Positions 3,557-46,467 of a stretch of 64,000 bases of DNA are shown piece after piece. The DNA lies in NCBI GenBank assembly GCA_003707065.3, contig PPXM03000010.1, positions 372,001 through 436,000 on the forward strand, read 5' to 3'. The stretch comes from Trigonopsis variabilis (lineage: Eukaryota > Ascomycota > Trigonopsidomycetes > Trigonopsidales > Trigonopsidaceae). Both the position numbers and the translations under genes were made by a program. Numbering within the stretch: the stretch's first letter is position 1; each line of letters begins with the position of its first letter. The notes below the pieces were generated by a model. It saw nothing but the letters and a program-made list of their open reading frames with translations, was not told the DNA's origin and did not search any database.

Positions 3557-4510
3557 TTAGAAAAATCGATAAGCAGTAAGAAATGAGAGAAACCATAAGA
3601 TGCCGGCCCGACCATGTAGAACGGCACCAATGATACCAGGTCCGGGGCAGACACCAACCATTCCCCAACCGACTCCGAAAAGGACAGAGCCGAAGATCAA
3701 TTGCCAGTTAATATCAGTCCGTGTAGGTATATCGAACCTCTTGGTCCGAGAACAATGAGGCTCTTTAGTTAGCCCTCGAACCTGGAACATGATAAGGTTG
3801 GGTAGCACAGCCAGGAGCATGACCATTAAAAGACTAGGATCGAATTTCTGAGGACTCAGGATTGATAAAAAGCCCAAAACCTTAGCTGGTTCAGCCATCC
3901 TAGATATAAGAAGTCCCTCACCAAAAATGAATCCGTTCACGAACGACGACGTCACTTCAGAAAAGAAGCTGGGCTTCAAAAACACTGTTGACAGGCTAAT
4001 CAAGATTGAAGCTCCAACCAGCAATGTTGCAACCGATAGGTCATGACGGGAAATCGATTCAGTAGATAGACACGGCCCTGATATGCATCTTGGAGCGTTA
4101 CTAAGAATGTTGCTCGTCAACATAGCTGTGGATGTAAATGTCATGGTTGCTGCAAAGGACCGCTTTGATAGCCGGCTTAACCCACAAAGCATATGGCCTG
4201 AAGTACATCCTGAACCATATTTAGTTCCCGTCCCCACCAGTAATCCTGCTAAAGCATATAATAGATCCGTATTCCGCTGTCCTGAGTCACTAATATAGTA
4301 CTTGGGAAGGAACTCTGGGGTAAGAGTTTTCGTGAATAAAGCCGAAGATAAAATTCCCACAACCACTGGTACGTTGAATGTCGTCGGAGAGAAAAATGAC
4401 TTGTATAGGATTGATGAAATCCCCATGATCTTGCCGTCTTCATAAAGAAATCCGGATGATGATAAATGTAGAAGAATAGCTCCAAGACCTGTCAAGACAG
4501 GAGTGAACAT
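3557..4510 (-). CDS. YeeE/YedE family sulfur-compound (thiosulfate-type) transporter
   Basis: A 317-residue integral membrane protein. The open frame reaches a GTG further upstream, but the first ATG is at 4510 and gives the N-terminus MFTPVLTGLGA, which fits how fungal members of this family start. Two family hallmarks are visible: GSGCTSGH at about residues 100-106 in the first half and GVGWGMVGVCPGP around residues 280-291 in the second. In bacterial YeeE such cysteines line the thiosulfate path. Several hydrophobic stretches fit a multi-pass membrane protein. The frame ends in TAYRFF and a stop, but the bases at that stop (CTAATTCAG) look like a branch site and acceptor. An overlapping frame continues to 3411 with a hydrophobic and then charged tail, so the 3' end may be misjudged because of an intron or frameshift. 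Confidence 0.75.
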   Translation of the reverse strand: MFTPVLTGLGAILLHLSSSGFLYEDGKIMGISSILYKSFFSPTTFNVPVVVGILSSALFTKTLTPEFLPKYYISDSGQRNTDLLYALAGLLVGTGTKYGSGCTSGHMLCGLSRLSKRSFAATMTFTSTAMLTSNILSNAPRCISGPCLSTESISRHDLSVATLLVGASILISLSTVFLKPSFFSEVTSSFVNGFIFGEGLLISRMAEPAKVLGFLSILSPQKFDPSLLMVMLLAVLPNLIMFQVRGLTKEPHCSRTKRFDIPTRTDINWQLIFGSVLFGVGWGMVGVCPGPGIIGAVLHGRAGILWFLSFLTAYRFF

Positions 4511-5013
4511 GATGATTGGTGCTTCCGGATCGGAAACGCTACCTGCCGTTGTGATGAGCAATGTCACGCCTGTGAATGGGACGCGAACTCAGCAGTCGAT
4601 CTGAGACAATTTGTAATCCAACCTTTCTCCTCGTATGAAGTAGTTACTGCAGGTTGCTGAATAAGATTAATGTATTTGCCTCATATAGCTTATAGATTTT
4701 AGAACAAAGTGAGCTCTGATAGCTCCTACGGACATTTCAACAAAGAGCACTCCTTAAAAATCTATCAACTAGTCCTCTAAAATGAAGCAGCTGGTCAGCC
4801 TGCTAGGATAAGCCCATGTCGTTCTCCTGAAAAGCCCTCTTCTGCTCATTATCGCATACTATTTACTAGGGTGGATATGATAAAAATAATCTCGTATGAA
4901 TATAAACATTCCAAAAGGTTTCTCTCTATTCATTTAAAGTACTTGCTTTCTTTCAGAAATCTCGTGCTCCTTGATCTAATAGCCTCGTCAGCTGTAAAAG
5001 TGTCATATAATCC
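4511..5013. other. Spacer between YeeE-like gene and Zn2Cys6 regulator
   Basis: About 500 bp. It holds the promoter of the YeeE-like gene (read leftwards) and the 3' flank of the regulator gene. Nothing else is recognisable. Confidence 0.5.
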
Positions 5014-15245: not shown

Positions 15246-17306
15246 CTACTCCTTCGCCGACTCTGGGTCCATCATCAGCAGTTCACCGGCCGCCCTGTTA
15301 TTATCATACTTGGCTTGCACAATAACCATTATCATGTTTTGAGCAATCTTTGCTTTAGCTTGAAGGTCCCCGTCGACGTTAAATGGTCTGATTGGGAATT
15401 GACCTGCCCAACGAGATCCAGCTAGTGTGGGTTCATGTGCTTCGCCATCAATATATATCGTAAGCGATTTCGGCTGAGGTGTAGCTTTGCCCTCGATAGT
15501 TAGAGTTAGGGACCCTTCATGGCTTTTGAGCTCATATGAGCTCACTGACGCACAAAGAGCTGACGAAGACGACGAGGAAGATCCCTTTTGCATATTTTCA
15601 GGGCTAATGACATCCGTGGGTAAGGGTGGAGCAAGCTTGGGAGGACGTCGATTCTTAGTCGAGGTCTCGTAAGCATATGCATATTTCAAAAGATTATTAT
15701 CGTCATAAGCCTTGCCCGCAAAAGTAAGCCCCACAGGCATTTGAGTATCGGCCATAATTCCCATATTAACTGTCACGGTAGGAACTCCCAGGTGACGGAT
15801 AGCTCTATTCCCATTGGAATATTTAACTCCATTTGACCATGCAAATTTGGCAGAAACATCATTAACATCAGCGTCTTCGCGTCCAACATCACCATTGGCA
15901 GGAAACACGACAGCATCAATAGAATTCTGGTCCATCCAGTCTTCAAGAAAGCTCTTTCGTGCGGATTCAAGCGAGCGAAGAGCTTGCTCTATACCCGGTA
16001 TGTCCAATAACGTTCTTCCTTCACGTTCCTCAATAAAAGAGGGCAACTGAGTGAATTTAATTGCGTTTTTAGGCTCAGAGTACTTTATCTGAGGGTGCGA
16101 TAAATCTTTAGAGGCCGGGAAAAGTTGATCACATTGAACTTGGAAAAGGGTATGGCAACTGGGATCATCATTTTCACGAAGAAAATCCTCCCAAGCATAA
16201 GCTATCATAATCCCTCGTTCAATTGAATTCCAATCATTAGGCATGCCTTCCTTGTTGGTCAGATGGTTCAACTGCACCATTTGCTTTTCATATTCGGTGA
16301 CCAGAGGGAATTCGGTCTCTACAACCGTAGCACCAAGGTCCTCCAGTGCCTTTCGTGCCGATTTCCAAAGGTCAATAACGGACTGTCGGACATTGACATG
16401 AGCACCATCAGCATCTTTAGCGCCAATGTACATCTTGGGGACGGCAAGGCGTTTCCCAGCCAAACTATCGCTATTAATCAAGTCAAAGTAAGATTCAGGC
16501 CTGATGTCAGTGAGCTTTGGCAATGAGATAAAGGGTTGTTGTCTCCATAGTTCACTCTTCTCGCACAGCTCGTCCTGGACCAAGGTCACGTTGAGAATCT
16601 CAAAAAGATCCTTCATGGAGCGAGTGTGAGAGATCACAACATCACAAGTAGGATACAACGGCCAACTTCCACGCGCCGACCATAAGCCTCGCGAAGGAGT
16701 GTAAGTGACTATCGCATTATTTGAAGCAGGAGATCGCCCTGAAGAGACAGTTTCACCCCCAAACCCAAAAGCCGAAAAACTGGAGGTAGTGGATGTTGCA
16801 GAACCATTCGATGATCCTGAAGCAAAAGCCGCCGTCAAAAATTCTGAATTATAAGGGCTTTTAGGACCACCATATACGCCTTTTTGCATCCCGCCGTATG
16901 CCATCGGAGGCATATTCGTTTGACCAATAAGAACTCCACCTGCTCCACGTACTTTCTTTGTAATAAAACTGTCATCATTGGCCACCAGATCTCGCAATGC
17001 CGGAGAGCCACATGCCACCGTTAGCCCTTTCACCTTATAACTGTCTTTCAAAGTAAATGGGATCCCCTCTAACGGTCCAAGTACCTCTCCTTTGGCCCGT
17101 CTTTCATCTGATGCCGCGGCCTCAACTAAGACGTTTGGATTAATAAGAGGAATGGAATTGAGAACTGGACCTCGACAGTCATACTTGCTGATACGAATCA
17201 AATGCTTGATTACCAGTTCGACACTTGATATCGCTCCACTTTCTAGAGAATTGCGCAAATCAGCAATGGACGCCTCAACAATATTAAGCTCGGCGTCTTG
17301 AGTCAT
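15246..17306 (-). CDS. Amidase-signature hydrolase with a C-terminal extra domain
   Basis: A 686-residue protein starting at ATG 17306. The amidase fold spans about residues 10-565. The Ser-cisSer-Lys triad can be placed at Lys87 (GIPFTLKDS), Ser165 (in ASGSSNGSA) and Ser189 (in GETVSSGRSPA). The nucleophile loop differs from the classic GTDTGGSIR, as in distant relatives of GatA. The last ~100 residues lie beyond the usual amidase end: a Ser-run linker (SSSSSS near 585) and a beta-rich segment including KSLTIYIDGEAHEPTLAG. I do not recognise this part. The enzyme should hydrolyse an amide, releasing ammonia or an amine, probably in the cytosol since no signal peptide is seen. A GATAAG site lies about 110 bp upstream, compatible with nitrogen control. 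Substrate unknown. Confidence 0.85.
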   Translation of the reverse strand: MTQDAELNIVEASIADLRNSLESGAISSVELVIKHLIRISKYDCRGPVLNSIPLINPNVLVEAAASDERRAKGEVLGPLEGIPFTLKDSYKVKGLTVACGSPALRDLVANDDSFITKKVRGAGGVLIGQTNMPPMAYGGMQKGVYGGPKSPYNSEFLTAAFASGSSNGSATSTTSSFSAFGFGGETVSSGRSPASNNAIVTYTPSRGLWSARGSWPLYPTCDVVISHTRSMKDLFEILNVTLVQDELCEKSELWRQQPFISLPKLTDIRPESYFDLINSDSLAGKRLAVPKMYIGAKDADGAHVNVRQSVIDLWKSARKALEDLGATVVETEFPLVTEYEKQMVQLNHLTNKEGMPNDWNSIERGIMIAYAWEDFLRENDDPSCHTLFQVQCDQLFPASKDLSHPQIKYSEPKNAIKFTQLPSFIEEREGRTLLDIPGIEQALRSLESARKSFLEDWMDQNSIDAVVFPANGDVGREDADVNDVSAKFAWSNGVKYSNGNRAIRHLGVPTVTVNMGIMADTQMPVGLTFAGKAYDDNNLLKYAYAYETSTKNRRPPKLAPPLPTDVISPENMQKGSSSSSSSALCASVSSYELKSHEGSLTLTIEGKATPQPKSLTIYIDGEAHEPTLAGSRWAGQFPIRPFNVDGDLQAKAKIAQNMIMVIVQAKYDNNRAAGELLMMDPESAKE

Positions 17307-18082: not shown

Positions 18083-19030
18083 TTATTCATCGACGCACAA
18101 AGAATAAGGTCCACTCAGACATTTCTGCCCTAAGGATAATCCATGGGCCATGATAATCTGAACATCGCCTCCAGATATTTTTTCCAGTGACTTAAGTTTC
18201 TTGATGGTACTTTTTGCCTGCTCTTCATTGACATGCATGCACATTAGGCAGCCTGTAGGACCTTCCCAATGGCCTATGTTCACTTCTCCATGTAAGAGTC
18301 GGATGTCATGGAGAGCATCCCCGCAAAAGAGTAATCCTTTACCGGAGTCACCGCGCAGCAAAAGCCCAGAATGGCCTGGTAAATGACCGGGCAGATCTAC
18401 AGCAAAGATTCTTCCATCATTGAAGATATCAACCACTGACAGATCAACCCCATTGCCTATTGTGGTCCATTCCCAGTCAAAAGTTCGATCTTTAACTGAT
18501 GCAGTCTTGGCTTCGCCTAGTGAAGGCAATTCGGTAGTCTGCGACGGTATGAAGAGGTTTCTTTCAAACTTGTCGTGAGATCCATTCAAAGATAAATCCA
18601 CACTACCCGCTCCAACGATGAAGTGGCATCCTGCATCTCTAAAAGCCTTTGTATTTCCAATATGATCCCAATGGATATGACTCAAAAAGACAATATCTAT
18701 ATCGCTGGGTGATAGTCCTAATTTAGAAATTCCTTCAATAACATCAACGTCAGAAGATAAAGGTTGGAAGTTTTTGAAAGGGGCGATCATAGCCTCAGGG
18801 TAGGCTTCTAGAGGCTTTCGAATACCTAAGTCAAACAAAAGCTTCAAAATTTGGCCTTGGGCATTGGTGTGCTCAATCAGAAATGCAAGTGAAGGAACGG
18901 TAAGCAGGCAATCCTCCTTGGCAGGTTCAATTAAAGTCATCTCTGGTAAACTCAGGATTCCTCCATGTAAACAGAAACATTTCACAGTAGAGTCTCCTAT
19001 TGTCATAGGTACGAGAGCCTTTAGGTTCAT
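18083..19030 (-). CDS. Metallo-beta-lactamase fold hydrolase, AHL-lactonase/AttM-like
   Basis: A 315-residue protein starting at ATG 19030. It carries the full metal site of the superfamily: HIHWDH at residues 118-123, His220 in DLPGHLPGHSG, Asp238 in FCGDALHD and a late His in MAHGLS near residue 297. The spacing and the LPGHLPGHSG block resemble the quorum-quenching lactonase group (AiiA/AttM-like), which opens lactone rings using two metal ions, usually zinc. No signal peptide is visible, so a cytosolic location is likely. It lies on the same strand as the D-lactate dehydrogenase gene, 415 bp downstream of that gene's end. Fungal relatives have many substrates; lactone hydrolysis is a family-based guess. 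Confidence 0.85.
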   Translation of the reverse strand: MNLKALVPMTIGDSTVKCFCLHGGILSLPEMTLIEPAKEDCLLTVPSLAFLIEHTNAQGQILKLLFDLGIRKPLEAYPEAMIAPFKNFQPLSSDVDVIEGISKLGLSPSDIDIVFLSHIHWDHIGNTKAFRDAGCHFIVGAGSVDLSLNGSHDKFERNLFIPSQTTELPSLGEAKTASVKDRTFDWEWTTIGNGVDLSVVDIFNDGRIFAVDLPGHLPGHSGLLLRGDSGKGLLFCGDALHDIRLLHGEVNIGHWEGPTGCLMCMHVNEEQAKSTIKKLKSLEKISGGDVQIIMAHGLSLGQKCLSGPYSLCVDE

Positions 19031-19445: not shown

Positions 19446-20438
19446 TCAGAGTGTTTTCACGGGATCAGTCTTTCCTTTAGCAAAGTCCGACACATTTTGC
19501 AAGGTAGTATTGGAGATGGCATTAAGGGCCTCTTTAGTGAAGAATGCCTGATGTCCGGTGATTAAGACATTTGGAAACGTGATGAGCCGTTGGAAGTCGT
19601 TATCCTTAACGATGTAGTTGGAGAGATCGCGGAAAAAGAGATCCTTTTCGTCTTCGTAAACGTCCATTGCGACGCCAGCCAGAGTTTCGCTTTCGATAGC
19701 GTCAATCAGAGCATTGGGATCAACCAAGCCTCCTCTGCTCGTGTTAATGAGGTAGGCGCCCTTTTTGAACAGCTTGAGGCTAGATTTGTTGATCATGTGA
19801 TGAGTCTCAGCGCTGAGAGGACAGTGGAGACAAACCACATCTGATTTCGATAAGAGCTCGTCGATTGAAAGATAGGGAATCCCCATATCTTTGATCTTCT
19901 CATTCTGATAAATATCTGAAGCTAATACCTCGCAGCCAAAGCCGAGTTTAAAAGTCCTGGCAACCAAGGTTCCAATCCTTCCTGTTCCAATGACTCCAAC
20001 GGTTTTACCATGCAAGTCTCTTCCTAATAAGCCGTCAAGGTTGAAATTGTCCATTCTGACTCGTGCCCACGCTCGGCAGATTTGACGATCAAGCGCAAGA
20101 AGCAGACCGACCGTATATTCGGCGACTGCATAAGGCGAATATGCAGGAACTCGGACAACGGTCAGTCCGAGATGTTTAGCAGCCTTGAGATCGACGTTAT
20201 TGAAGCCTGCGCATCTCAATGCGATAAGCTTAGTACCGTTCTGTGCCAAAACCTTGAGGACCGGAGTATCGACTTGATCGTTCACAAACACACAGACAAC
20301 GGGACAGCCTGAAGCAAGGATAGCGGTCGATTCGTTTAGCGAAGCCTGATGGAATTCTAGCTCATGGTTGAAACTCCTGTTGGCCTCCTCGAAAGAGGTC
20401 TGGTCGTATCGTTGAGTACTGAAAACTGCAATCTTCAT
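19446..20438 (-). CDS. ldhA: D-lactate dehydrogenase (LdhA-type, NAD-dependent)
   Basis: A 330-residue member of the D-2-hydroxyacid dehydrogenases, starting at ATG 20438. It reduces pyruvate to D-lactate with NADH. It closely resembles Escherichia coli LdhA from end to end: MKIAVFSTQRYD at the start, ALRCAGFNNVDL at 73-84, the Rossmann glycines GTGRIG at 151-156, catalytic Arg235 in NTSRGG, Glu264 in DVYEDE and His296 in TGHQAF. The length equals that of the bacterial enzyme (329). It is divergent from the L-lactate dehydrogenase gene with a 790-bp shared promoter. A TATATAT at 20478-20484 lies 40 bp upstream. LdhA-like proteins are also known in ascomycetes, so bacterial resemblance alone does not prove recent transfer. 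Confidence 0.93.
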   Translation of the reverse strand: MKIAVFSTQRYDQTSFEEANRSFNHELEFHQASLNESTAILASGCPVVCVFVNDQVDTPVLKVLAQNGTKLIALRCAGFNNVDLKAAKHLGLTVVRVPAYSPYAVAEYTVGLLLALDRQICRAWARVRMDNFNLDGLLGRDLHGKTVGVIGTGRIGTLVARTFKLGFGCEVLASDIYQNEKIKDMGIPYLSIDELLSKSDVVCLHCPLSAETHHMINKSSLKLFKKGAYLINTSRGGLVDPNALIDAIESETLAGVAMDVYEDEKDLFFRDLSNYIVKDNDFQRLITFPNVLITGHQAFFTKEALNAISNTTLQNVSDFAKGKTDPVKTL

Positions 20439-21228
20439 AGTTTATTTTTTGTCTTGCACCTCTGTCCGAGATTGCCATATATATTCCGAAGATCACTGCA
20501 TACGGCCAGATCCGGACTTTGAGGGACATACGCATTAGGGTCTGGTTTCTGAATTGGCAATCACTAAGTATTGATGTCATTAGACCATTTTTTGACGTAG
20601 AGTATCTGAATCTTTGTATCAATGCTGCTCCTGTTCAAGCTGCTCTTTTACTTAGAAAGGATTATGTATGCCCTTTGTTCACCCAATCATGATGTTCTAG
20701 AGCCCGGAAAAGAATTCTGACATAAACAGGAGCTCAAGCTTAGGTAATACTGTTGACATGAACCGCTATGTCTCTAACACAATTGGCCCTTTCACTACAC
20801 ATGTTGATCGTCTCGAAAAAATTCTTGATCTACATGACGTATATGACATAAGAGAAGAGCCTAGACAATACGACCTTTGTATGGTATTCTATTCTTTTTT
20901 TTAAAATCTAGTTATATTGTCTTTTTATGAACATTATTTGCTCTTTCATTCGTCTCTGCTCGCCGCCATCTCCTGATTTGCCGGCCCTCATCCCGAGGCC
21001 AAAAATTTGAGACAAGCCTAGCACTTAGCGTGATGAGTAGGCTTGAAAAGGAAGAAAACGGGCACCCAAATAGGCAATAAGAGCTTTCACACTTTTCCGT
21101 GGCATGAATCGTACAACCGAACCCGTGGCCAGATAGATTAAGTACCATGATCTCATACTTTAGGCCATGACAATTCTTTAAATAGCCAGCCCTCACCATG
21201 ATGTGGAGCCATAATATTGAATATCACC
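20439..21228. promoter_or_regulatory. Shared divergent promoter of the D- and L-lactate dehydrogenase genes
   Basis: 790 bp between two diverging genes. A TATATAT (20478-20484) serves the D-LDH side. A TTAAATAG near 21178-21185, about 45 bp before ATG 21229, may serve the L-LDH side. A GC-richer patch at about 20950-21000 (GCCGCC, GCCGGCC) may bind regulators. An ATG-started 95-codon frame on the minus strand (20912-21199) covers it but resembles nothing known and is probably chance. Confidence 0.5.
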
Positions 21229-22260
21229 ATGCCTAGCACGACGTCTGTGAACAAAGATAAAGGACTCAAGAAGGACAACTTAAAGGTAAACGATCATTTC
21301 ATGCCAGAATTAAGCTAATTTATCTAGCCCGTCAAAATTACAATTGTCGGAGTTGGTTTTGTAGGATCTACGACCGCTTACACTTTGCTTTTGAGTGGTT
21401 TAGCCAGTGAAATCGTCCTGATTGATGTTAAGGAGGAGAAAGCAGAAGGAGAGAGTATGGATCTGAATCATGCGGCACCCTTTTCACATGAAACTCGTGT
21501 CAAAGTCGGGGAGTACAAGGACTGCGAAGGAGCGGACATTGTAATTGTGGCTGGAGGAGCAAATCAAAAGCCCGGACAGACTCGAATGGACCTAGTTAAG
21601 ATTAATGTCGAAGTCTTCAAGTCCATCATTCCCAATGTCGCTAAGTATGCACCAGGGTCTATTTTGGTAATCGCGACAAATCCGGTGGATGTGTTGACTC
21701 ATGTCAGCTGGAAGTTGTCTGGATTCCCTGCTTCAAGAGTCATCGGCTCGGGAACGATTATTGACACTGCGAGGTTTCGATACTTGTTGAGCAAGTACTA
21801 TAAATTGGATCCTGATAGCATTGACGGATTCATTATCGGTGAACATGGTGATTCAGAGTTGGCTGCCTGGTCGCTTGTAAATATTGCTGGTATGAGACTC
21901 AAGGATTACTGCGAACAATCCAAGCAACAATACAATGAAGCTGCTATGCAATCGGCTTTCCAAGAGACCCGAGACGCTGCTTACGAGATTATTAAAAGAA
22001 AAGGTTACACCGCTTTTGGAATCGCTTCTGGATTGACACGAATTGTCGAGGCCATCCTCCGTGATGAGCGGTGCCTGCTCACTGTCTCAATTGTAGATGA
22101 TTACTTTGGCGTCAAAGAAGTCGCGCTCAGTGTTCCTACAGTCCTTACTCGAGACGGTGCTTTCCACAATGTCGAGTTGTTACTCGATGACAACGAGTTG
22201 GCTGGTATCCGCAAGAGCGCTGAAAATATTAAATCTGTCACGAGCTCTTTTGCGATTTAG
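21229..22260 (+). CDS. ldh: L-lactate dehydrogenase of bacterial sequence type, two exons
   Basis: Join of 21229-21285 and 21328-22260, 329 residues. The 42-nt intron (21286-21327: GTAAAC, AGCTAAT, TATCTAG) must be removed to restore the N-terminal Rossmann strand, ITIVGVGFVGSTTAY at 23-37. It interconverts pyruvate and L-lactate with NADH. Visible determinants: Gln99-Lys100 in the mobile loop (NQKPGQTR, the lactate- rather than malate-type choice), Arg105, Asn137 in ATNPVD, Asp165 and Arg168 in IDTARFR, and catalytic His192 in IGEHGDSE. The GSGTIIDTARFR block is the form seen in Bacillus-like enzymes, unlike the GSGCNLDSARFR of animals. The first ~19 residues are a basic extension. It probably arose by transfer from a bacterium followed by intron gain, which is an inference. 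Confidence 0.93.
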
Positions 22261-23198
22261 TGACGACCGATGTTATGCAAAGAATAGTAATCATGAATGA
22301 TTGGACTGAATGGAAAAGCGTATAATATGCTTGCGTAGCTTTTGCATCAAGCAGTTCTGGAATAGGGTCTTGCTTGTTACTCTAGTGAGAAGCATACTGC
22401 CTGACGACTTCAAAGCCTCGAACTCAAGAGTACGTAACGTTGAAATCTCAATCATTTCAAGATTTGGTTTCGCTGCATTCTGAATGGAAATATTTGGCCT
22501 TTCATACACGATGCGTAGCTGATCTGTCATATGGATGGATCGGACTAGATTTCACTCAACTATAGGCTGGACTAAGGCTCCGCTTCTAAATCAAGCTTAA
22601 GGCAGGATACTAATAGGTAGACTAAGCGCCGCTAAATAGCGGTGACTTCCCGAAATAGGAAGCTAGAAGCTTGATATCAGTTCAATGTGATGATATGTTC
22701 TAGACAAAGGAATGAATAAATTTCACACGAGATTCTCTGGAGTGGCTTTGGCTATGCTATGACTAGGCTGATCCAAAAGGCCTACAATTGATCCTAAACG
22801 AATCACGTATGCTTAGTAAACAATATGAATGATGCGCCGGTCTATCGATAGAACTGGTTCGGGATAAACAGTACCGGCCTCCCCCGTTTGGCTTTCCTGG
22901 AGACGGTTGATCGCTTGTCTAGCATGTTCAGGTGTCTTCCTTGACTATCCGCATATTCCGATAGAGCACGGCGACAATGGTGGGCGGGAAAGTAGCAAGT
23001 TTCGATGAACCATTCTACTTGTGACCTCGATGTGGTATGATTTTGCGCCCCGTGGGCCAGCATTACCGAAACAGTGTCGTCATGATGCAGAGAATTGGTT
23101 TCACCAAAGCGAGGCAGTCACTTTATGGAATGGTGCCAAAAAAAGACAAGCATATATATCTCCAGCCGGGTCCTAGAAATTTATCAATTGACTCTTTA
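22261..23198. other. Promoter region of the pyruvate decarboxylase gene
   Basis: About 940 bp between the L-LDH stop and the chosen PDC start. It holds a TATATATA at 23153-23159, 45 bp before ATG 23199, which supports that start. The PDC frame itself stays open back to an ATG at 23037. No separate gene is seen. Confidence 0.45.
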
Positions 23199-24899
23199 AT
23201 GTCATCATCTACCAGCGTTGGAAGTTATCTTGCTACTCGCTTAGCGCAGATTGGCATAAGCCATCATTTCGTTGTTCCCGGAGACTACAATCTAGTGCTT
23301 CTCGATAAGTTGCAGGAGAACCCAAATTTGCAGGAAATCAACTCTACTAATGAACTGAACTGTTCCTTTTCAGCTGAAGGATATGCTCGAGCTAAGGGCG
23401 TGGCTGCTTGCGTGGTAACTTTCAGTGTTGGTGCCTTCTCGGCCTTTAATGGAATCGGCGGCTCCTACGCTGAGAATCTCCCGGTGATCCTGGTCAGTGG
23501 TGCCCCCAATACAAACGATGGGCCTGATTTCCACTTACTCCATCATACTTTGGGAATTCATAACTTTGACTACCAATACGAAATGGCCAAGCAGATCACT
23601 TGCTGTGCCGTCCAGGTTAAGAGAGCTGAGGATGCTCCTTTCCTAATCGATAAGGCTATCCGAGAGGCTCTTCTCCAGAGGAAACCTTGCTACATTGAGA
23701 TTCCTACTAATCTCTCCGTCGCCCCATGTGCCGAACCTGGACCAATTAGCTGCATCACGTCGCCTATCCCCACCAATCAGGAGTCTCTGGATGCCGCTGT
23801 TGATGCTGCTGTCAAATTCCTCGGATCAAAACTCAAGCCCGTTCTGGTTGCTGGTCCTAAACTCCGAGCCGCTGGCGCTGAGGCTGCCTTTTTGAAGTTA
23901 GCAGAGGCATTAGGCTGTGCTGTCACCGTGATGCCTTCTGCCAAGTCATTCTTTCCTGAGAATCATAAACAATTTGCTGGAATCTACTGGGGTCAAGTGA
24001 GCACCAAGGGAGCAAACTCGATCTTGAATTGGTCTGATTTGGCCGTTTGTGCCGGTTCGGTCTTTACTGATTACAGCACCACCGGATGGACTTCTCTTCA
24101 GCCTGGCACTCATCGAATCGAGGCTGATTTCACCACCGTCAAGTTCCCTGGACACTTTTATCATCGTATTCACATGGCTGATTTCTTGTCTGCCCTTGCT
24201 GACAAGGTCACTCGAAATGAAACGAGTTTGTTAGAATACAACCGTCTCAAGCCCGAGTCTGTCCCTCATCATCCTACGGATCCCGAAAAGCCATTGACAA
24301 GACAAGAAATGGCCTTCCAGATCCAAAACCTTATTACAACCGATACCACTCTCTTTGCAGAAACAGGCGATTCCTGGTTCAACGGAGAGCAGATGACCCT
24401 TCCTGACGGTGCGCGATTCGAGGTTGAAATGCAATGGGGTCATATTGGCTGGTCGGTCCCTTCAAGTTTCGGCTACTCTGTTGGTACCCCTGGAAGACGA
24501 ATCATTACCATGGTCGGCGATGGATCCTTCCAAATGACTGGACAGGAGGTCTCTCAAATGGTCCGTCTCCGTCTTCCTATTATCATCTTTTTGATTAACA
24601 ATCTCGGTTATACCATTGAAGTCGAGATCCATGATGGCCCTTACAACAATATCAAGAATTGGAACTATGCTGCATTCATTGAGGCGTTTAACGCTGGAGA
24701 TGGCTACGGTAAAGGATTCCAGGCCAAGACGCCCAAACAATTGCATGAAGCTATTAAGCAAGCTTTGGCAAATGACAAAGGGCCTACACTTATTGAATGT
24801 TGCATCAACCGGGATGACTGCACAAATGAACTCATTAGCTGGGGTCATTTCGTTGCCATGGCCAACGGTCGAGCTCCTAGGCCTTTACCTCCTTCTTAA
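23199..24899 (+). CDS. pdc: Pyruvate decarboxylase, Zymomonas/plant type
   Basis: A 566-residue thiamine-diphosphate enzyme that turns pyruvate into acetaldehyde and CO2. The frame is open from ATG 23037, giving 54 more residues (with ATG 23082 in between). ATG 23199 fits the family length (Zymomonas PDC, 568) and the TATA element at 23153. Key residues in this numbering are Asp29, Glu52 in NELNCSF, and the His pair 115-116 in LLHHTLG. The ThDP motif begins with GDGSFQMT and ends with NNLGYTIE around residues 440-475, including the Glu of TIE. Blocks such as HDGPYNNIKNWNYA are near-identical to Zymomonas and unlike Saccharomyces PDC1. The optional N-terminus is basic and could be a presequence. 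It follows L-LDH on the same strand. A CTG codon encodes a conserved Leu in PVILVSG. Confidence 0.93.
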   Translation: MSSSTSVGSYLATRLAQIGISHHFVVPGDYNLVLLDKLQENPNLQEINSTNELNCSFSAEGYARAKGVAACVVTFSVGAFSAFNGIGGSYAENLPVILVSGAPNTNDGPDFHLLHHTLGIHNFDYQYEMAKQITCCAVQVKRAEDAPFLIDKAIREALLQRKPCYIEIPTNLSVAPCAEPGPISCITSPIPTNQESLDAAVDAAVKFLGSKLKPVLVAGPKLRAAGAEAAFLKLAEALGCAVTVMPSAKSFFPENHKQFAGIYWGQVSTKGANSILNWSDLAVCAGSVFTDYSTTGWTSLQPGTHRIEADFTTVKFPGHFYHRIHMADFLSALADKVTRNETSLLEYNRLKPESVPHHPTDPEKPLTRQEMAFQIQNLITTDTTLFAETGDSWFNGEQMTLPDGARFEVEMQWGHIGWSVPSSFGYSVGTPGRRIITMVGDGSFQMTGQEVSQMVRLRLPIIIFLINNLGYTIEVEIHDGPYNNIKNWNYAAFIEAFNAGDGYGKGFQAKTPKQLHEAIKQALANDKGPTLIECCINRDDCTNELISWGHFVAMANGRAPRPLPPS

Positions 24900-25108: not shown

Positions 25109-27196
25109 TCAAACTTCTGCCTTTTCAACAACGACGTTTTCGTTCTCTTCTGCGGACGTGGAATCATCCGAAACAAGGACGTCGTTTTTCTCGCCATCGT
25201 ACACCTCAGCGTCAGAGGTCACAGCCTGGCTATGATGACCATCGAGGAAGACAACATCGGTTGGCTTCTCCTTGTGCATGACTTTGCGGTAAAGATGGAT
25301 GAGAGACTCTCGACTTTCCCAGATAGGATAGAAGGTGATGTAAAAGAAAGCTAAGAAAAGCCAGATGAAGATAACCACGATCCAGCCTCGGAAGAAAGGT
25401 TTAGAAAAGATGTACTTCTGGCCATACATAGGGAAAGGAAGAATGAAAGTCAGCCCGATAAAGATAAAAGGAACAACGAACCAAGCCCACTTGATAGCAA
25501 CATCCAATTGATGTTGAGTTTCAGGGGACAGCTTCATTAAGCGTTTCTCTTCCACTGTAGCATCATCACCAACTGTGAATTTACTTTGCATGGAATCAAA
25601 GTCGAAATCCTCGGGGAAAATCAAAGTGAGGACGAGAGAGTAGATCAAGGTTGACCCTGCAGTGACGAAATTGGCAATGATAGTAGAATCGACAAGTCCC
25701 AGAGTGTCCTTAGTAATCTCGCCGTAAAAGTGATAGGCGGCGCCTAACCAACATCCGAGACCAGTAAGAGAACCAAGAGGCATGGCAGCATAGATACACC
25801 ACTTACTCATCCGGCGGGAGAAGAGAGTAAGAGTGATACCAACAGGTGCAGCACCGAGAATGATACCAATAAAGGTCAAAATCCATGAGATTGTAATGCC
25901 GATGTAATTAAACATGATTGTTAAGCCCCCGGTGAAAAGAGCAAAAGTGATAACAAAGAAATGAGACACAGCAACTAGCTGTTTACCAGTAGCCTGAGGA
26001 CGAATGTATGTTCGGAACACATCGTATGTCATAACAGATGAGAAAGACACCAATTCAGCCGAAAGAGCAGAAGTACAAGACATGAAAAGGATGAGTAGGC
26101 CGGCAGCAGCACCACTCTTGCCCATGATGGCATAAAGCCCGTAAAGCATGGGCATTCCCATATTGACTTCAGAAGTACTGATGACATCAGGATAAGTAAT
26201 GGAGACAGGGTTGTTGGTAAGAGCCAAGGCGGACAAGGCGCTAGCAGAACCAAGAGCCCATGGGATGACGAACCAGCACAGAGATCCAATAACATAACCA
26301 GACACAGTAGAAAGAGGTCTAGCAGCAATAGCCTTCTGTCCATAGGAAGGATCTGCAAAAACAGAAGCGAAACCAGACATGATCTGACTCCAAGCGGTCA
26401 TTACCAAAGTTTTGTTGCGGAAAGTGAGGTAAGATCCACCTTCGCCAGTAGAAGGATGCGTCTTTGAAACTTCAACCAAAAGATCATACATTTTGTCAGG
26501 TGAACCAATGTGTTCGGAAGTAGAATAGGCAACGAACATCGCGACAATGATAATAACGTATATGACGACAGTATGAGTCCAATCAGATAAGAAAGTACTC
26601 TTGAGACCGCCCAACGTGGTATAAATAGCAACAGAAACTGGGAAAAGCATTGCACAAGCAACGATGTGAATCTATATATTAGAATCCAAACAGGAAACTA
26701 GTTTCGTTACCTTCGAGATATGAGAAAAGGACTGAGAACCGCCCAAGAGAAGCATGCTAGCAATGATGATATTGGTGCCACAAGAGTAGAATATATAGAT
26801 GCAATGTCCGATGGCTCCAAATCGAGCTCGGACGATTTCGACAATGGTATGAGCGCCAGTAGCTTTCCGCTTCATTTGAAGGGCGACCAAGGTGAAAAGC
26901 ATAGAGTGGGAAATACCACAGATGCCATACCAGTAAGATCCAGCGACACCATATCGATAGGCATAGACAGACGAAGACAACAAAGTACCAGGCCAGCACC
27001 ATGATGAAACGACAGCCGAGGAAATCAAACCAGACTTGATGGAACGTGACGCTGTCGAGAAATGTTCGGAATCCTGCACTTCACCCATATATTTAGATAA
27101 AATTCTGGTTACAAAAATCATGATCATAGCAAAGGCAGCGCCCAGGCCAACAACAAAGCCGTAACCATAGCCTGCATTCAACACTTCAGTGGTCAT
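25109..27196 (-). CDS. DUR3: DUR3-type urea/polyamine transporter, copy 1, two exons
   Basis: Join of 27196-26711 and 26671-25109, 682 residues. The 39-nt intron (26672-26710: GTAACG, TTCTAAT, ATATAG) splices HISK to IHIVACAM at the place where the intronless paralog at 46468 reads straight through. It is a sodium:solute-symporter-family plasma-membrane protein with about fifteen hydrophobic segments. Typical blocks are NAGYGYGFVVGLGAAFA at the start, GEVQDSEHFSTASRS, LGGLKSTFLSDWTHT, FADPSYGQKAIAA and FNYIGITISWIL. Dur3 imports urea, and in yeast also polyamines, with protons. The C-tail is acidic. Five GATA motifs within 160 bp upstream (27249-27356) suggest nitrogen repression. It converges with the PDC gene (209-bp gap). 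Function is well supported by family. Confidence 0.92.
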
Positions 27197-38387: not shown

Positions 38388-41300
38388 CTATTTAAGAATA
38401 ATAATGACGTCACCAGCGTTGACATATGAACCTGGATTGACACAGACTTTGACGACGGTTCCCTGGACAGAACTGAGGAGAGGCATCTCAGTCTTCATGG
38501 CCTCGACAATGGCGACAGGAGTGGAAGGTTTGACGCTATCACCGGGTTTGACCAACACTTTCCAACATCTTCCACTAAAATCACTAAAGACTTGAGACAT
38601 ACCATCTTCGAGTTCGAATTGTTCATTGTTGCTTTCAGGCGCCTTGCACGGCTGCTCATTGGCAATGCTAATCAATTCTACCATCTTCTCTCTTCCTTTT
38701 TCTAGGTCTACCGTATACTTTTCTATGGATTCCTTGTTGGCATGTAAGAAGTCCCTATATTCCTTGATGGAGAACGACCTAGTGGAAATATCAAACTTGA
38801 ACTGGCCGTTTCGACAATCCAGTGTCATCTGATCTAATTCCGATTCACTCACAGGGTAATACTGAATGATATCGAATATATTGAACAGCCATGGGTTCGA
38901 TTGATCGTTCAAAGACAAAGTGCTCCATATTGGAACGGTCCTTCCTACCAATTGATAGCCTCCAGGAGACTCCATTGCGTATATGGCCATATACATGCCT
39001 CCAAATGATACTGTGCCTTCTCCGGTATAACTCCGGGAGGGATTGTATTTAGTCCCAAGTAGCCGATGCCGAGGATCTAAAGGTAAAGTGCACGGTGATC
39101 CCAGAAAAACATCTCCTAAACCGAGGACCAAGAAATCGGCACTGAAACACAGTTCCGCAAGGTCCTGGGGAGAATTCATCTTATTGATCTCCACCAGAAA
39201 ATCTATATTGCTCGGCAGCCAGGGTGCCTCAGCTCGAATGGTCTCTCTATATCTATCAATGGCTTTTCTCGTACCAGAGTCGTCGAATGCCATGGGAAGT
39301 CGGATGACACGAGAATTGATAACCCAAGAATCCGAACATTCCACCGACTTTTCTATCTCAACCAGTTGAGAAAGTAACTCTGTCTGGGACATTACCAGAC
39401 AATCGAATTCAAGCAAAAGAGAACGAATACCAGGAGATATCTCCTTGACGGCTCCAATAAGTGATTGTATAGTGTCCGCCACTTTTTCTATTCTGTAGTT
39501 GATCTCGATATCGACCTTATTTGGTCCATATTCAGCGAGGATATATCGATCACCTGCTTGGCGATAGACGACTGTAGGGCGAGATTCCGTCTGATCCAAC
39601 TGTAGTAAAATAGGATCACCCAAGGGAATTTGTCTGGGTATGAATACCGAACGATTGAACTGCATGTCAGTAAAACCCTTGATAGAAAAATACCTACATC
39701 ATTTATGTTGAGAGCTTGAGCTCGAGTTAACTTCACAGCATCATTAAAAGAGACCAGTTTGAATTTTATTTCATCACCTGGTTTTACTTGACCCATTTTC
39801 CATAGATCTGACTGAATTATGACACCTAGGCACACAAACCCCCCCAAACTCGGGCCATCACAAGTAATGACTACTGGATCATCTCCAGTGAAATTGATTG
39901 CTCCTAGAGAGTAAACGTAATCGTGTGCGTTTGACGGGTGCAGTCCACCCTCGCCCCCGTCGACACGAGCCCATTTAGGATTTGGACCGATTAGACGGAC
40001 ACCAAAGCGATTGCAGTTGTAATGAACCCGCCATTTGGACGACAACAACTCTTCAACACTTGTTTTCTGAAAAAAATCTGGATATGAATGAGGGCCAATC
40101 AGGATACCAACTTCCCAAGAAGATGGGTAAGCAGGAATCAGGCTTTCAGGGAATGATTCGGGAGAATAACAGGCAGGTTTGATTTCACGCGACGCGAATC
40201 TAGAATTTGCGATAAAACAAATGTCACCAAATTTGATGATGGATCCATTGATACCACCAAATTTACCAGGGACATATGTGGAACAGGATCCAAGATATGG
40301 AATACATTCAAGACCTCCACGAAAGGCTATATAGGCACGTACCCCATCTCTTAACTTGCCTAACTTTAGTTTTTGCCCCTTTTTTACTTCGATCGGTTTC
40401 CAGTTGGGCACGGGCTCGTTGTCCAGAGTAATCTTTCCCGAAGCGCCCGTAATTGCAATCAAAGCATCGTAATGAAACAGCATTGTAGGTCCAATGAGCG
40501 TACATTCTATTCCTGGAACAGATGAGTCATTACCGACGATCCTGTTTGCAACCTGAAAAGCGAAATCGTCCATCGGTCCGGAGGGAGGTATCCCTACTTT
40601 CCAATAGCTAGCACGACCAGGATAATCTTGAATGGTGGTATAATTTCCGGGTTCTAAGAACTCAATAGCAGAGTCTTCATATTCGAACTCGTTAAGGAAA
40701 CTTGTATAGATCTGCTTGTTTCGGAAAGCTGGGCAGGAAACAATAGATCTCAGGTATCTGAGATTAGTAGTTATGCCTGCTACTACTGTTTCTTCGAGTG
40801 CTTTGAGCATAATATTTATTGCGTCTGATCGCGAGGGCGCCTTGATTATGATTTTCGCCAGGAGTGGATCATATTGACTCGAAACTTGTGATCCTTTTGC
40901 TACCCACGTGTCTGTTCTAGCAAATGAAGGAAAGGATACCTCACTCAACAATCCCGATGATGGTGTGAAGTTCTTGAGAGGGCTTTCAGCATAAAGTCGG
41001 ACTTCCATTGAGCAGCCGTCCAAGTGAATTGGTTTAGAGAAATCAGGAGGAGTATCAGCGGCTATTAGAATCATCCATTCGACCAGATCGATACCTGAAA
41101 CTTGCTCGGTAATAGGATGTTCAACTTGTAACCGGGTGTTGACTTCAAGAAAGTAGAACTCGCTTGTTTCATTGTCGTAGATAAACTCGACAGTTGCGAC
41201 ATTCTTATAATTTATGGATTCAATCAATCGCTTTGCTGTTTCATGAAGATTATGACGGATTTGAGGGTCAAGATCAAAAGCTGGTGTTTCTTCAATAACT

Positions 41301-42016
41301 TTTTGATTCCGTCGCTGGAGCGAGCAATCTCTCTCACCCAGTGTCATAGCATTTCCTCGACCATCTCCTATAACTTGGACCTCTATATGACGCGCTCGTT
41401 CGATGTATTTTTCCAGGAGGACAGCAGAGTTATTGAAATATCTCAACCCTTGGCTTGCGACTGTTTCATAGGCCGAATCCAGCTCGGCCTCAGAAAAACA
41501 CCTTTGCAATCCTATTCCCCCTCCACCAGCGCTTGATTTTATCATCACCGGATATCCAATACTTTGGGCGAAATTTCTCGCTTGCTCGAGATTATCTATT
41601 AGTCCTGTTCCGGGAATCAAGGGAACGCCTGCCGTCTGGGCAATTTCACGAGCGTAATGTTTTAATCCTAGTATCCGTATGCATTCAGGAGAGGGTCCTA
41701 TAAAAACAATCCCTTGGTTTGCGCATTCCTGTGCGAAATCTGCGTTCTCGCTGAGAAATCCGTACCCAGGTATGATGGCGTCGACATCATGAAGCTTTGC
41801 TTGTTGGATTATAAGACCAATATTTAGATAAGTCCCTGAGACGGTGCTTCCTGGCAGAAATATCGATTCATCTGCAAGCTGTACATGTTGAGAATACTTG
41901 TCTGTCTCTGAGTAAATAGCGACACTGCAAATGTTCAGTTGTTTGAGAGTCTTGATTATTCTGACGGCTATTTCACCTCTATTAGCGATCAACACCCGAG
42001 AGAATGGGCGCGTCAT
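38388..42016 (-). CDS. Urea carboxylase (biotin-dependent), stand-alone, two exons
   Basis: Join of 42016-39698 and 39659-38388, 1196 residues. The 38-nt intron (39660-39697: GTAGGT, TTACTGACATGCAG) shifts the frame unless removed and joins ALNIND to FNRSVFIP. It carboxylates urea to allophanate using ATP and bicarbonate. Domains in order: biotin carboxylase (1 to about 450, with KSSAGGGGIGLQ, EKYIERARHIEVQ and ERDCSLQRRNQKVIEE); carboxyltransferase B/KipA-like (about 470-770, QDYPGRASYWKVGIPPSGPMD, GGEGGLHPSN); carboxyltransferase A/KipI-like (about 790-1050, GLGDVFLGSPC); biotin carrier (about 1120-1196) with Lys1162 in EAMKTEM. It closely resembles the C-terminal two thirds of yeast Dur1,2 but lacks the amidase part, which is encoded by the divergent neighbour. 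No guanidine deiminase gene is nearby, so urea is the likely substrate. Confidence 0.93.
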
Positions 42017-42484
42017 GATGATTTACCTCAATATACAGTCGAGCTAATGCTGGAGTGTTGATACTAACAGCACTTTATCCAGGGTAGGTTTCAAAGTTCG
42101 GCTTCTTCCGCTCGACAATCTAGGATAGCACAGATAGCGCAGATAACAATCAATCTAGATAATGCTGACTCGATCTTGTCCAATTATTATCGGTTAGAAC
42201 TGTCCCTTGGGAGTTCACCTGCCACTTTTGGATTAGTCCTATATCTTCCGAGTCATCGGGAATTCCGCCTCATTATCAAGGTATGCATTTCGGTAATTAC
42301 TTGTTCTAAAGAAGTGAAGAATTATCTGTAGCAAAATCCCGGATATTGTACTTTTTATATATTCGCTGAAGGTGCAAAGGGCTCTTAAAAATTGTCCTAT
42401 CGGTCTTAAACTCGGCTCTGGTAACCGTGTCATTGCTTATCGGGACACAAGTGTCCAAAAACATTCGATGTTGACTCATGAAAG
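42017..42484. promoter_or_regulatory. GATA-rich bidirectional promoter of urea carboxylase and allophanate hydrolase
   Basis: 468 bp between the two diverging starts. Ten GATA motifs on either strand: GATAA at 42075, 42142, 42158, 42187, 42273, 42322 and 42437 (the last is GATAAG), and GATAG at 42124, 42133 and 42397. Chance would give about two. GATA factors (Gln3/Gat1/AreA type) switch on nitrogen-scavenging genes, so co-control of both genes is likely. A TTTTTATATAT at 42352-42362 is a TATA candidate for the rightward gene. Confidence 0.7.
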
Positions 42485-44239
42485 ATGAGATCATTATCAT
42501 CGGGTCTCTCCGCCCTGCTATCATCAAGTCACCTTACTCCTCTGATACACAGATATCCGTCGTACTTGATATCGGCTCGTATTCCGTCCAAACTTGTAGT
42601 AGTCACTTTGATAACCTGTATGAGTGGACTGACAATACCGGAATGGCTGGACCGTCAACGTGGCGGCGATTTTGATTACGGTCTGAATAATCTACTGGAA
42701 CTTGTTGGATCATTTGATAAATCAGACCCTGCTTGGATCACTGTGGCAAGCCCTGAATTCATTAGAGAGCAATGGAATGAGCTGAGAGCAACCGAAGGAG
42801 CTAGGAACTTACCTCTTTATGGTGTGCCGTTCGCAGTCAAGGATAATATTGATGTCGCCGGACTGCCGACGACGGTAGCCTGCGAAGCCTACGCATATTC
42901 CCCTTGTCAAGATGCCACTCTAGTCAAGTTATTGAAGAAAGCTGGAGCGATTGTGGTTGGGAAAACGAACTTGGATCAGTTTGCTACAGGATTAGTAGGA
43001 GCCAGATCCCCCTATGGCAGGCCCTGTTGTGTTTTCTCCTCGGACTACATCTCAGGAGGCTCTTCTTCAGGATCAGGTGTAGTAGTGTCTAAAGGACTGG
43101 TTCCTTTTGCTCTAGCAAGCGATACCGCGGGAAGCGGTAGAGTTCCAGCTGGAATAAATAATATCATTGGACTAAAACCTTCTAGAGGAGTATTCAGCTA
43201 TACCGGTGCCTGTGCTGCCTGCCGGTCTCTGGATTGTATATCCCTCATGGCTTTAGATATTGCCGATGCTCAGCTTTTATTTGAAATCTGCGCTAAACCT
43301 GACTCGACAGACATGTATTCGAGAAGCCTACCTGCCTTCCCACTGTCTACCTTCGGTACGGAGCCTTGTCTAGCCTATCCTCAAGAACCCAAGTTCTTCG
43401 GAGATGAAGAAAATAGCCAAATCTTCAGTTCCGTAATTGATGAAATGAGATTTCTCGGTTTTAATATGGTCCCTGTTGACTTTACTCCTTTGGACGAACT
43501 GGCGCTTTGCCTATATGAAGGCCCATGGATTGCTGAGCGATATGAAGCTACAAAGGGCTTTATCAAGAACCACTTTGACTCAATGAATCCCACGGTACGT
43601 ACCATTTTAATGGATGGTGAGAAATACACTGCTGCTGATGTGTTCCACTATGAACATAAGCGTCAAGCTATTCTTAAAAAGATAGAACTCCAGTTCGAAG
43701 GAATTAATGGTTTTATCGTCCCCACTTTTCCGTTTATTCCAACTTTTAAAGTATATGATGAAGATCCGATCGGAGTGAATGCCAAAATGGGGACCTATAC
43801 TAATTTCGTCAATCTAGCCGATATGTGTGGCTTAGCAATTCCTGCAGGCTTCAAAAGAAACGGGCTACCTTTTGGAGTTACTCTCTTGAGTTGCAAGTTC
43901 AACGACTATGCATTGCTAGATCTTGCGAGTCGGTTTTTGACTGCTAGAAGAGCAGATCGCACCATGGGAGCGACCAAACGCTCCATAGAGTCGCGGGATC
44001 AGTTGGCAAAGGGCATCCAACCTCTCTCCTTTACTACGGCTACCTTTTCTTTTGCACTTCCTTTCTCAAAAAAGGCCCTAAGCGCTTTTGGAGGGAGAGA
44101 AACTGAAATGAATGGCCAAAAGTACCTCTTGACGACTTTGAACCCTGAGAAGTCCCCCTTGATATTTGAATTCTTTCCTGATTCGACCCTCAAAAGGATT
44201 ATGCTAGAAGGTAAAGAATTCATTCTTGTGTCGCTATAA
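42485..44239 (+). CDS. Allophanate hydrolase, stand-alone
   Basis: An amidase-signature enzyme that splits allophanate into two ammonia and two CO2. From ATG 42485 it has 584 residues. In this numbering the triad is Lys119 (GVPFAVKDNID), Ser193 (SGGSSSGSG) and Ser217 (DTAGSGRVPAG). Blocks such as NLDQFATGLVG, YEGPWIAERYEA and TNFVNLADMCGLA are as in yeast Dur1,2. The first 45 residues are not family-like. A start at ATG 42620 would give 539 residues beginning MSGLTIPEWLDRQ, which matches the Dur1,2 N-terminus, so the start is uncertain. An ATG at 42478 in another frame precedes both. After about residue 500 the C-terminal domain is shorter and much changed compared with AtzF or Dur1,2. It diverges from urea carboxylase, its pathway partner. 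Confidence 0.9.
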   Translation: MRSLSSGLSALLSSSHLTPLIHRYPSYLISARIPSKLVVVTLITCMSGLTIPEWLDRQRGGDFDYGLNNLLELVGSFDKSDPAWITVASPEFIREQWNELRATEGARNLPLYGVPFAVKDNIDVAGLPTTVACEAYAYSPCQDATLVKLLKKAGAIVVGKTNLDQFATGLVGARSPYGRPCCVFSSDYISGGSSSGSGVVVSKGLVPFALASDTAGSGRVPAGINNIIGLKPSRGVFSYTGACAACRSLDCISLMALDIADAQLLFEICAKPDSTDMYSRSLPAFPLSTFGTEPCLAYPQEPKFFGDEENSQIFSSVIDEMRFLGFNMVPVDFTPLDELALCLYEGPWIAERYEATKGFIKNHFDSMNPTVRTILMDGEKYTAADVFHYEHKRQAILKKIELQFEGINGFIVPTFPFIPTFKVYDEDPIGVNAKMGTYTNFVNLADMCGLAIPAGFKRNGLPFGVTLLSCKFNDYALLDLASRFLTARRADRTMGATKRSIESRDQLAKGIQPLSFTTATFSFALPFSKKALSAFGGRETEMNGQKYLLTTLNPEKSPLIFEFFPDSTLKRIMLEGKEFILVSL

Positions 44240-46071: not shown

Positions 46072-46467
46072 GATGATATCGAGTGCTAAGGATACTAAGG
46101 GTAAATAAGACGCCCACCTTATCCATTCTGTTGGCCCTGTCTAGTAATTAAGCACGGAGTCAACCGATGGCTCGTGAATATCAGTTATGACCCCGAATCG
46201 GATAAGCGAGTTTGCAGGTCGCGTCCATTTCGAGTCATACGGCGCGGAGCGAACCGAAGAACAGCTCGGCGGATCTTGCCGTCGGGAGATTGCGAACAGG
46301 ATTTCCAAATCGATACAACGACGTGGCCAAAAATGAGAGAGACATGATAGTCAAGATACATGATATCTGGAACCAAGCCAAAGATCTTATCGTCAAACAT
46401 CTGCTTTTCCGAAGTTTCCAACACCATATATAGAGGACGTGATCCAGCAACAGTCGAAAATTGACCG
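46072..46467. promoter_or_regulatory. Bidirectional promoter of amidase and DUR3 copy 2
   Basis: 396 bp. It holds three GATAAG motifs (46118-46123, 46201-46206 and 46386-46391, either strand) and one GATAG (46346-46350), as expected for nitrogen catabolite control. A TATATA at 46427-46432 lies 41 bp before the DUR3 start. The middle (about 46240-46300) is GC-rich with several CGG triplets, possible Zn2Cys6 sites. Confidence 0.6.

Follow-up and report, generated by a model that had tools for sequence, protein, structure and literature searches.

In a 64,000-nucleotide stretch of the genome of the ascomycete Trigonopsis variabilis (contig PPXM03000010.1, positions 372,001 to 436,000; hereafter the window), three intact neighbouring genes occupy positions 19446-24899. 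They encode a predicted D-lactate dehydrogenase (D-LDH), a predicted L-lactate dehydrogenase (L-LDH), and a predicted pyruvate decarboxylase (PDC). As described in the initial annotation of this DNA, the three genes are adjacent and the first two are divergent: the D-LDH and L-LDH genes stand head to head with their start codons 790 bp apart, and the PDC gene follows L-LDH in tandem 938 bp further on. The features of the locus are the following.

19446..20438, minus strand: D-LDH of the LdhA type (2HADH family, LDHD subfamily), 330 amino acids, predicted from Pfam, matches to solved structures, and motifs
20439..21228, no strand: intergenic region of 790 bp from which D-LDH and L-LDH diverge, from the gene coordinates
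21229..21285, plus strand: L-LDH exon 1, 19 codons, gene model from the ATG at 21229
21286..21327, plus strand: L-LDH intron, 42 nt, read from its splice sites (GTAAAC donor, branch-like GCTAAT site, CTAG end)
21328..22260, plus strand: L-LDH exon 2 (whole protein 329 amino acids), predicted from TIGR01771 and motifs
22261..23198, no strand: intergenic region 5' of PDC, 938 bp, from the gene coordinates
23199..24899, plus strand: Zymomonas-type PDC, 566 amino acids, predicted from thiamine pyrophosphate (TPP) domains, identities, and motifs; an in-frame upstream ATG at 23037 is possible

The D-LDH gene has no intron. The open reading frame (ORF) listed for L-LDH starts inside the gene, the true start being the ATG at 21229, and L-LDH is regarded as spliced like its neighbour because a neighbouring symporter gene contains a comparably short intron (39 nt, 26672-26710). 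This intron and a Zn2Cys6 fungal regulator, which Pfam finds in the window, mark the DNA as fungal. The PDC ORF opens at 23037, and in this long frame the first TPP domain runs from residue 60 onward. When the frame is instead read from the ATG at 23199, its alignment with solved PDCs sets in at residue 4-6, and this ATG is preceded at a distance of 47 bp by an ATATATA box (at 23152). The start at 23199 with a product of 566 amino acids is therefore the better model; the ATG at 23037 was dropped as a certain start because homology begins near 23199. A reassignment of CTG was also dropped: the CTG-encoded leucine in the MDLNHA stretch of L-LDH aligns with a leucine of bacterial lactate dehydrogenases, and the standard genetic code was therefore kept. 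The codon distances of D-LDH (0.082) and PDC (0.083) fall within the span of 16 window genes (0.055-0.123).

The three enzyme assignments of the initial annotation are borne out by Pfam, by NCBIfam in the case of L-LDH, by matches to solved structures, and by catalytic motifs. The D-LDH protein matches PF00389 and PF02826 (2-Hacid_dh and 2-Hacid_dh_C) over its full length. Its best solved matches are D-LDHs (1.5e-108), with 366 bits for the Escherichia coli enzyme and 361 bits for 5z20. The motifs LASDIY with the aspartate for nicotinamide adenine dinucleotide (NAD), NTSRGG, DVYEDE, and TGHQAF, the last three being the Arg, Glu, and His motifs, are present together with F51; the positions of the Arg-Glu-His triad are those that we take to be catalytic in D-LDHs. 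Among 23 listed NCBIfam models there is not one whose cut-off the protein attains, the best being a VanH model with 260 against 540 bits; the NCBIfam D-LDH cut-off is a database criterion and no defining trait of the LDHD subfamily. Members of this subfamily are known in fungi (PMC6303947).

The L-LDH protein matches PF00056 and PF02866. Its exon 2 alone scores 381.3 bits with the NCBIfam model TIGR01771 for NAD-dependent L-LDH (cut-off 303.55) and 385.5 bits with PRK00066 (cut-off 339), and the malate models stay under their cut-offs. The substrate loop ANQKPGQTR with Gln in place of Arg, the catalytic histidine GEHGDSELAAWS, and the NAD-type aspartate in VLIDV are all present, as is a GEHGD motif; the roles given here to the Gln loop, the His, and the Asp are those that we presume for these residues. 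The protein is 44% identical to a solved enzyme, which we take to be from a Geobacillus-type organism. From its sequence the gene is predicted to encode an NAD-dependent L-LDH that would convert pyruvate into L-lactate.

The third protein consists of three TPP-enzyme domains according to Pfam and carries the TPP motif GDG..NN, the catalytic Glu, and the double His, with presumed roles for these residues. Its best solved matches are the chain ANC27, presumably an ancestral reconstruction, and chains named pyruvate decarboxylase, and it is 55-60% identical to four solved PDC chains, ANC27 among them. The five best solved chains score 676-754 bits, whereas no yeast-type chain scores more than about 247 bits, the organism of each chain, including which ones are yeast, being our own assignment. 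The initial view that this PDC is not of the classic yeast type was thus confirmed. A score of 349 with TIGR03393, the indolepyruvate model, is far under the cut-off of 946 and therefore speaks against an indolepyruvate enzyme only. The protein is predicted to be a Zymomonas-type PDC apart from yeast Pdc1, and we take the Zymomonas type and the PDC clade of moulds and plants to be the same group.

The same three enzyme types are found in the fission yeast Schizosaccharomyces pombe under the consecutive gene numbers SPAC186.07c, SPAC186.08c, and SPAC186.09 (pdc102) on one subtelomeric cosmid. This cosmid, c186, comprises 30,176 bp of the subtelomere on the right arm of chromosome 1, with SPAC186.09 at its end (PMC4370569). 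The consecutive numbering suggests that the three S. pombe genes are adjacent. SPAC186.08c is listed as 'L-lactate dehydrogenase (predicted)' (PMC7218141) and has been described as a lactate dehydrogenase that is missing from Schizosaccharomyces japonicus and budding yeast (PMC7615655). Pdc102 and its paralog Pdc101, held to be the main PDC in growing S. pombe cells, form a clade with the PDCs of Neurospora crassa, Aspergillus fumigatus, and plants, apart from Pdc1/5/6 of Saccharomyces cerevisiae (PMC4153625). Like these mould/plant-type PDCs, to which that of Arabidopsis also belongs, the PDC from the window is far from S. cerevisiae Pdc1. In an Atf1/Pcr1 expression dataset, pdc102 is among the genes listed (PMC8960879).

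LdhA-type D-LDHs are known from Cryptococcus (CNAG_00832) and Aspergillus, and an old bacterial origin has been inferred for them (PMC11185503). These enzymes are fungal like the D-LDH from the window, which they resemble by description, and they were compared with E. coli P52643; an L-LDH or PDC neighbour is not mentioned in the excerpt of that paper. The D-LDH and PDC from the window probably belong to these published fungal D-LDH and mould/plant PDC groups. The initial annotation had held that no such fungal cluster was described. This statement holds in part: the genes SPAC186.07c to SPAC186.09 are known, but a description of the trio as a cluster was not found in the open-licence PMC literature, as far as excerpts reach, and the excerpts of PMC2329640, PMC10662464, PMC7175467, PMC10618596, and PMC6838020 contain nothing on the trio.

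The data on SPAC186.07c also raise the question of substrate. If the D-LDH were a general 2-keto-acid reductase forming D-2-hydroxy acids such as hydroxyisocaproate, the set would be less a fermentation system than a means of getting rid of keto acids and aldehydes. Less hydroxyisocaproate was found in the media of five S. pombe single deletion mutants lacking putative hydroxyacid dehydrogenases, SPAC186.07c and SPAC186.02 among them (PMC9639812), and SPAC186.07c, described as hydroxyacid dehydrogenase-like, is induced by heme-precursor starvation (PMC12303383). The D-LDH from the window, however, agrees with the E. coli enzyme in Phe51 and the surrounding VCVFVND motif, and in E. coli LdhA Phe51 has been linked to a pyruvate-sized pocket and is thought to exclude larger substrates (PMC6303947). 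A role in keto acid disposal is accordingly regarded as improbable.

The bacterial-looking sequences of all three genes led to the initial suggestion that the block may have been gathered by horizontal transfer, perhaps as one unit. Bacterial relatives were sought in a collection with one genome per species (84,980 bacterial and archaeal species). A pattern scan, which detects only genomes with one of two conserved PDC peptides, gave 169 PDC relatives, the best 80 of which were kept (51-62% identity). In one family sample, a Zymomonas-type PDC was present in 4 of 298 genomes, three of them already among the earlier relatives, and none of 87 candidate stretches in viral contigs scanned for stray fungal PDC relatives encodes one. 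D-LDH matches at an E-value of 1e-85 or better were obtained in 88 of 398 Pseudomonadota and 18 of 148 Bacteroidota genomes. For L-LDH, matches at 1e-70 occur in 26 of 146 cyanobacterial genomes. The genomes searched thus yielded no close bacterial donor, the best identities being 62% for PDC, 58% for D-LDH, and 49% for L-LDH.

Trees were calculated for PDC (37 rows from 93 hit loci, with repeats dropped and the lower-scoring hits, mostly from Acetobacteraceae, thinned to every fourth) and for D-LDH (49 rows, with loci only for the best of the 88 and 18 matches, at most 30 and 12). Both contain bacteria and the window genes only and so cannot tell whether the latter belong to a fungal clade or came by a single transfer. 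The PDC from the window pairs with the PDC of an Acidobacteriaceae metagenome-assembled genome (L014; support 100/98), both rows being long and their wider placing weak; this bacterial gene (L014:926-2692) has neighbours that look bacterial by eye. The D-LDH joins two Pseudomonadota genomes (L105, L106; support 98/95) on a weak backbone. The nearest bacterial rows for the two proteins are thus from different phyla. No match to the PDC was found in the genomes of L105 and L106 at 1e-30, and none to the D-LDH in that of L014 at 1e-60.

The trio was further looked for in 23 genomes with a PDC, selected from those behind the 80 kept loci. A D-LDH at 1e-60 is present in six of them and an L-LDH with >40% identity in two, both Microcystis; at these thresholds all three genes occur together in none of the 23. 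Bacterial 'L-LDH' matches at 27-34% identity were not taken as L-LDH, malate dehydrogenase being more likely. A bacterial row for comparison is that of Methylobacterium sp. BTF04 (L098:8560-13541), in which a D-LDH gene, a gene for a transporter of the major facilitator superfamily (MFS), and a Zymomonas-type PDC gene stand in a row on one strand. It shows that D-LDH and PDC genes can cluster elsewhere, as they do in the window. In contrast to the window, this ldhA-MFS-pdc row is bacterial, contains no L-LDH gene, and has the MFS gene between the other two. Its D-LDH is about 50% identical to that from the window and falls outside the supported group of the latter, again with a weak backbone. 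As a donor this row was dropped, since besides the position of its D-LDH the only L-LDH-like match is 29% identical.

A transfer of the whole block from bacteria can claim in its favour the bacterial type of the PDC and D-LDH, the Methylobacterium row, and bacterial sisters in trees in which the window is the sole eukaryote. Against it stand the different nearest rows for the two proteins, the lack of the respective partner gene in the sister genomes, the position of the Methylobacterium D-LDH, the result for the 23 PDC-bearing genomes, and the intron in L-LDH. It appears highly improbable to us. The trees for PDC and D-LDH went against the initial suggestion, giving different bacterial sisters for the two, and from the sequences a recent or joint bacterial transfer is not visible among the genomes searched. 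What survives of the suggestion is an old bacterial origin, which has been published for the fungal D-LDH alone (PMC11185503); a separate old bacterial ancestry of the trio genes is possible.

From the predicted activities, a role in fermentation can be proposed. D-LDH and L-LDH would use NADH to form D- and L-lactate from pyruvate, thereby regenerating NAD+. PDC would convert pyruvate into acetaldehyde and CO2, a reaction that itself consumes no NADH, and an alcohol dehydrogenase encoded elsewhere would be needed for NADH use on that branch. Since the PDC branch uses NADH only through this alcohol dehydrogenase, only two of the three genes would recycle NAD+ directly. Beside the cell's main PDC, the trio may act as an accessory set for fermentation under overflow or stress and as the counterpart of SPAC186.07c/.08c/.09 of S. 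pombe. The direction of flux in vivo, the inducing condition, and the joint action of the three enzymes are what we infer. As the initial annotation proposed, the genes may also form an NADH module, possibly under common regulation. Candidate regulatory elements in the divergent 790-bp region are an ATATATA sequence at 20477, three CCAAT-type words, and two TGACGT words.

Both dehydrogenases might instead run in reverse, with D- and L-lactate serving as carbon sources. Fungal lactate use usually depends on flavin or cytochrome-linked enzymes, and the equilibrium of lactate dehydrogenase favours pyruvate reduction; both points speak against such a role, and the adjacent PDC would drain the pyruvate formed. 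In its favour, both are NAD enzymes of reactions that are reversible according to established enzymology, and growth via gluconeogenesis has been suggested for the Cryptococcus D-LDH (PMC11185503). There is very little probability that the trio serves lactate utilization.

Taken together, the trio is best read as a small fungal cluster of pyruvate-using enzymes that is the counterpart of the S. pombe set, has an accessory fermentation role, and was assembled in fungi, a reading in which we have moderate confidence. The D-LDH would derive from an old bacterial gene that ascomycetes already possessed, the PDC would be a member of the mould/plant-type clade, and the genes would have been brought together within fungi and not through one recent bacterial transfer.

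Several observations weigh against this reading. The S. pombe suffixes (c, c, none) place L-LDH on the strand opposite to PDC, in contrast to the tandem L-LDH and PDC genes of the window, and the presumed orthology of the trio to the S. pombe set is based on annotation and numbering. The donor search for L-LDH was the narrowest of the three, covering few bacteria, chiefly the 146 cyanobacterial genomes. Our confidence is slightly reduced because the suffixes oppose an identical arrangement and because this search was narrow. In addition, the codon use of L-LDH is the most deviant of the 16 window genes (0.123, the next being 0.113), and in the trees, which contain no other eukaryotes, D-LDH and PDC each have a bacterial sister, which alone does not exclude a transfer. 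No alcohol dehydrogenase was seen among the part of the window genes that was scanned. The two intergenic regions (790 and 938 bp) share words no more than expected by chance: 34 8-mers are found in both against a null mean of 27.3, and two 10-mers against 1.92, the null being 200 random sequences from a first-order Markov model. Finally, pdc102 mRNA is barely detected in S. pombe, and its deletion causes no significant change in stationary survival (PMC4153625).

The word sharing at chance level and the near silence of pdc102 would fit with loose or chance neighbours, the three being accessory genes that stand among catabolic ones and have no common regulation or pathway role, as would the many surrounding scanned genes that look like nitrogen-use genes. 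The adjacency of the trio nevertheless seems beyond chance because the S. pombe counterparts, which are of the same enzyme types, are numbered consecutively, and D-LDH and L-LDH have one intergenic region in common. Moreover, SPAC186.08c and SPAC186.09, two of the three S. pombe genes, are both named among genes reduced by exposure to silver nanoparticles (PMC9997555), which hints weakly at a shared response. Chance neighbourhood is thus judged unlikely, although less so than the other alternatives.

The fungal cluster with an accessory fermentation role is therefore preferred. A bolder version of it would see in the trio a conserved ascomycete accessory fermentation cassette, assembled in fungi from separate bacterial ancestries, transmitted or retained as one block across lineages as distant as those of the S. 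pombe subtelomere and the fungus studied here, and active only under low oxygen or redox stress. We put this version forward as a tentative and rather doubtful idea.

The surroundings of the trio were also inspected. A gene for a hydrolase with metallo-beta-lactamase fold (18083-19030, minus strand) adjoins D-LDH and has weak matches to bacterial lactonases far under the cut-off. An amidase gene (15246-17306, minus strand) matches PRK06565, a bacterial equivalog model, with 685 against 575 bits and encodes a C-terminal extension of about 120 residues past the match, and an ORF at 3557-4588 (minus strand) matches DUF6691 and PF04143 (sulphur transport). Two sodium/solute symporter genes, both DUR3-like by eye, lie on either side of a segment that contains amidase, urea carboxylase, and allophanate hydrolase genes; for the first (25109-27196, minus strand) TIGR00813 is under its cut-off, and for the second (46465-48480, plus strand) PF00474 is over its cut-off. 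Budding yeast has urea carboxylase and allophanate hydrolase fused as one urea amidolyase. In the window, a stand-alone urea carboxylase gene (38388-42022, minus strand), with TIGR02712 matched at 1-769 and 789-1200 in two frames and, as judged by eye, an intron of 38 nt at 39660-39697, diverges from a separate gene for allophanate hydrolase (42482-44239, plus strand; TIGR02713, 551 against 511 bits). Beyond the second symporter gene, a carbon-nitrogen hydrolase gene (48642-49658) is followed by one for gamma-glutamyltransferase (50519-52276).

The trio genes resemble known fission yeast and mould genes, and the find is a modest one and not a new kind of system. At present, its chief contribution is that a known set of genes gains one further fungus. 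For comparison, the non-respiring S. japonicus has been reported to be without L-LDH (PMC7615655). If the trio is a conserved unit, it would show how fungi gain a second, lactate-forming route for the regeneration of NAD+, a property useful for making organic acids and relevant to life in the absence of respiration.

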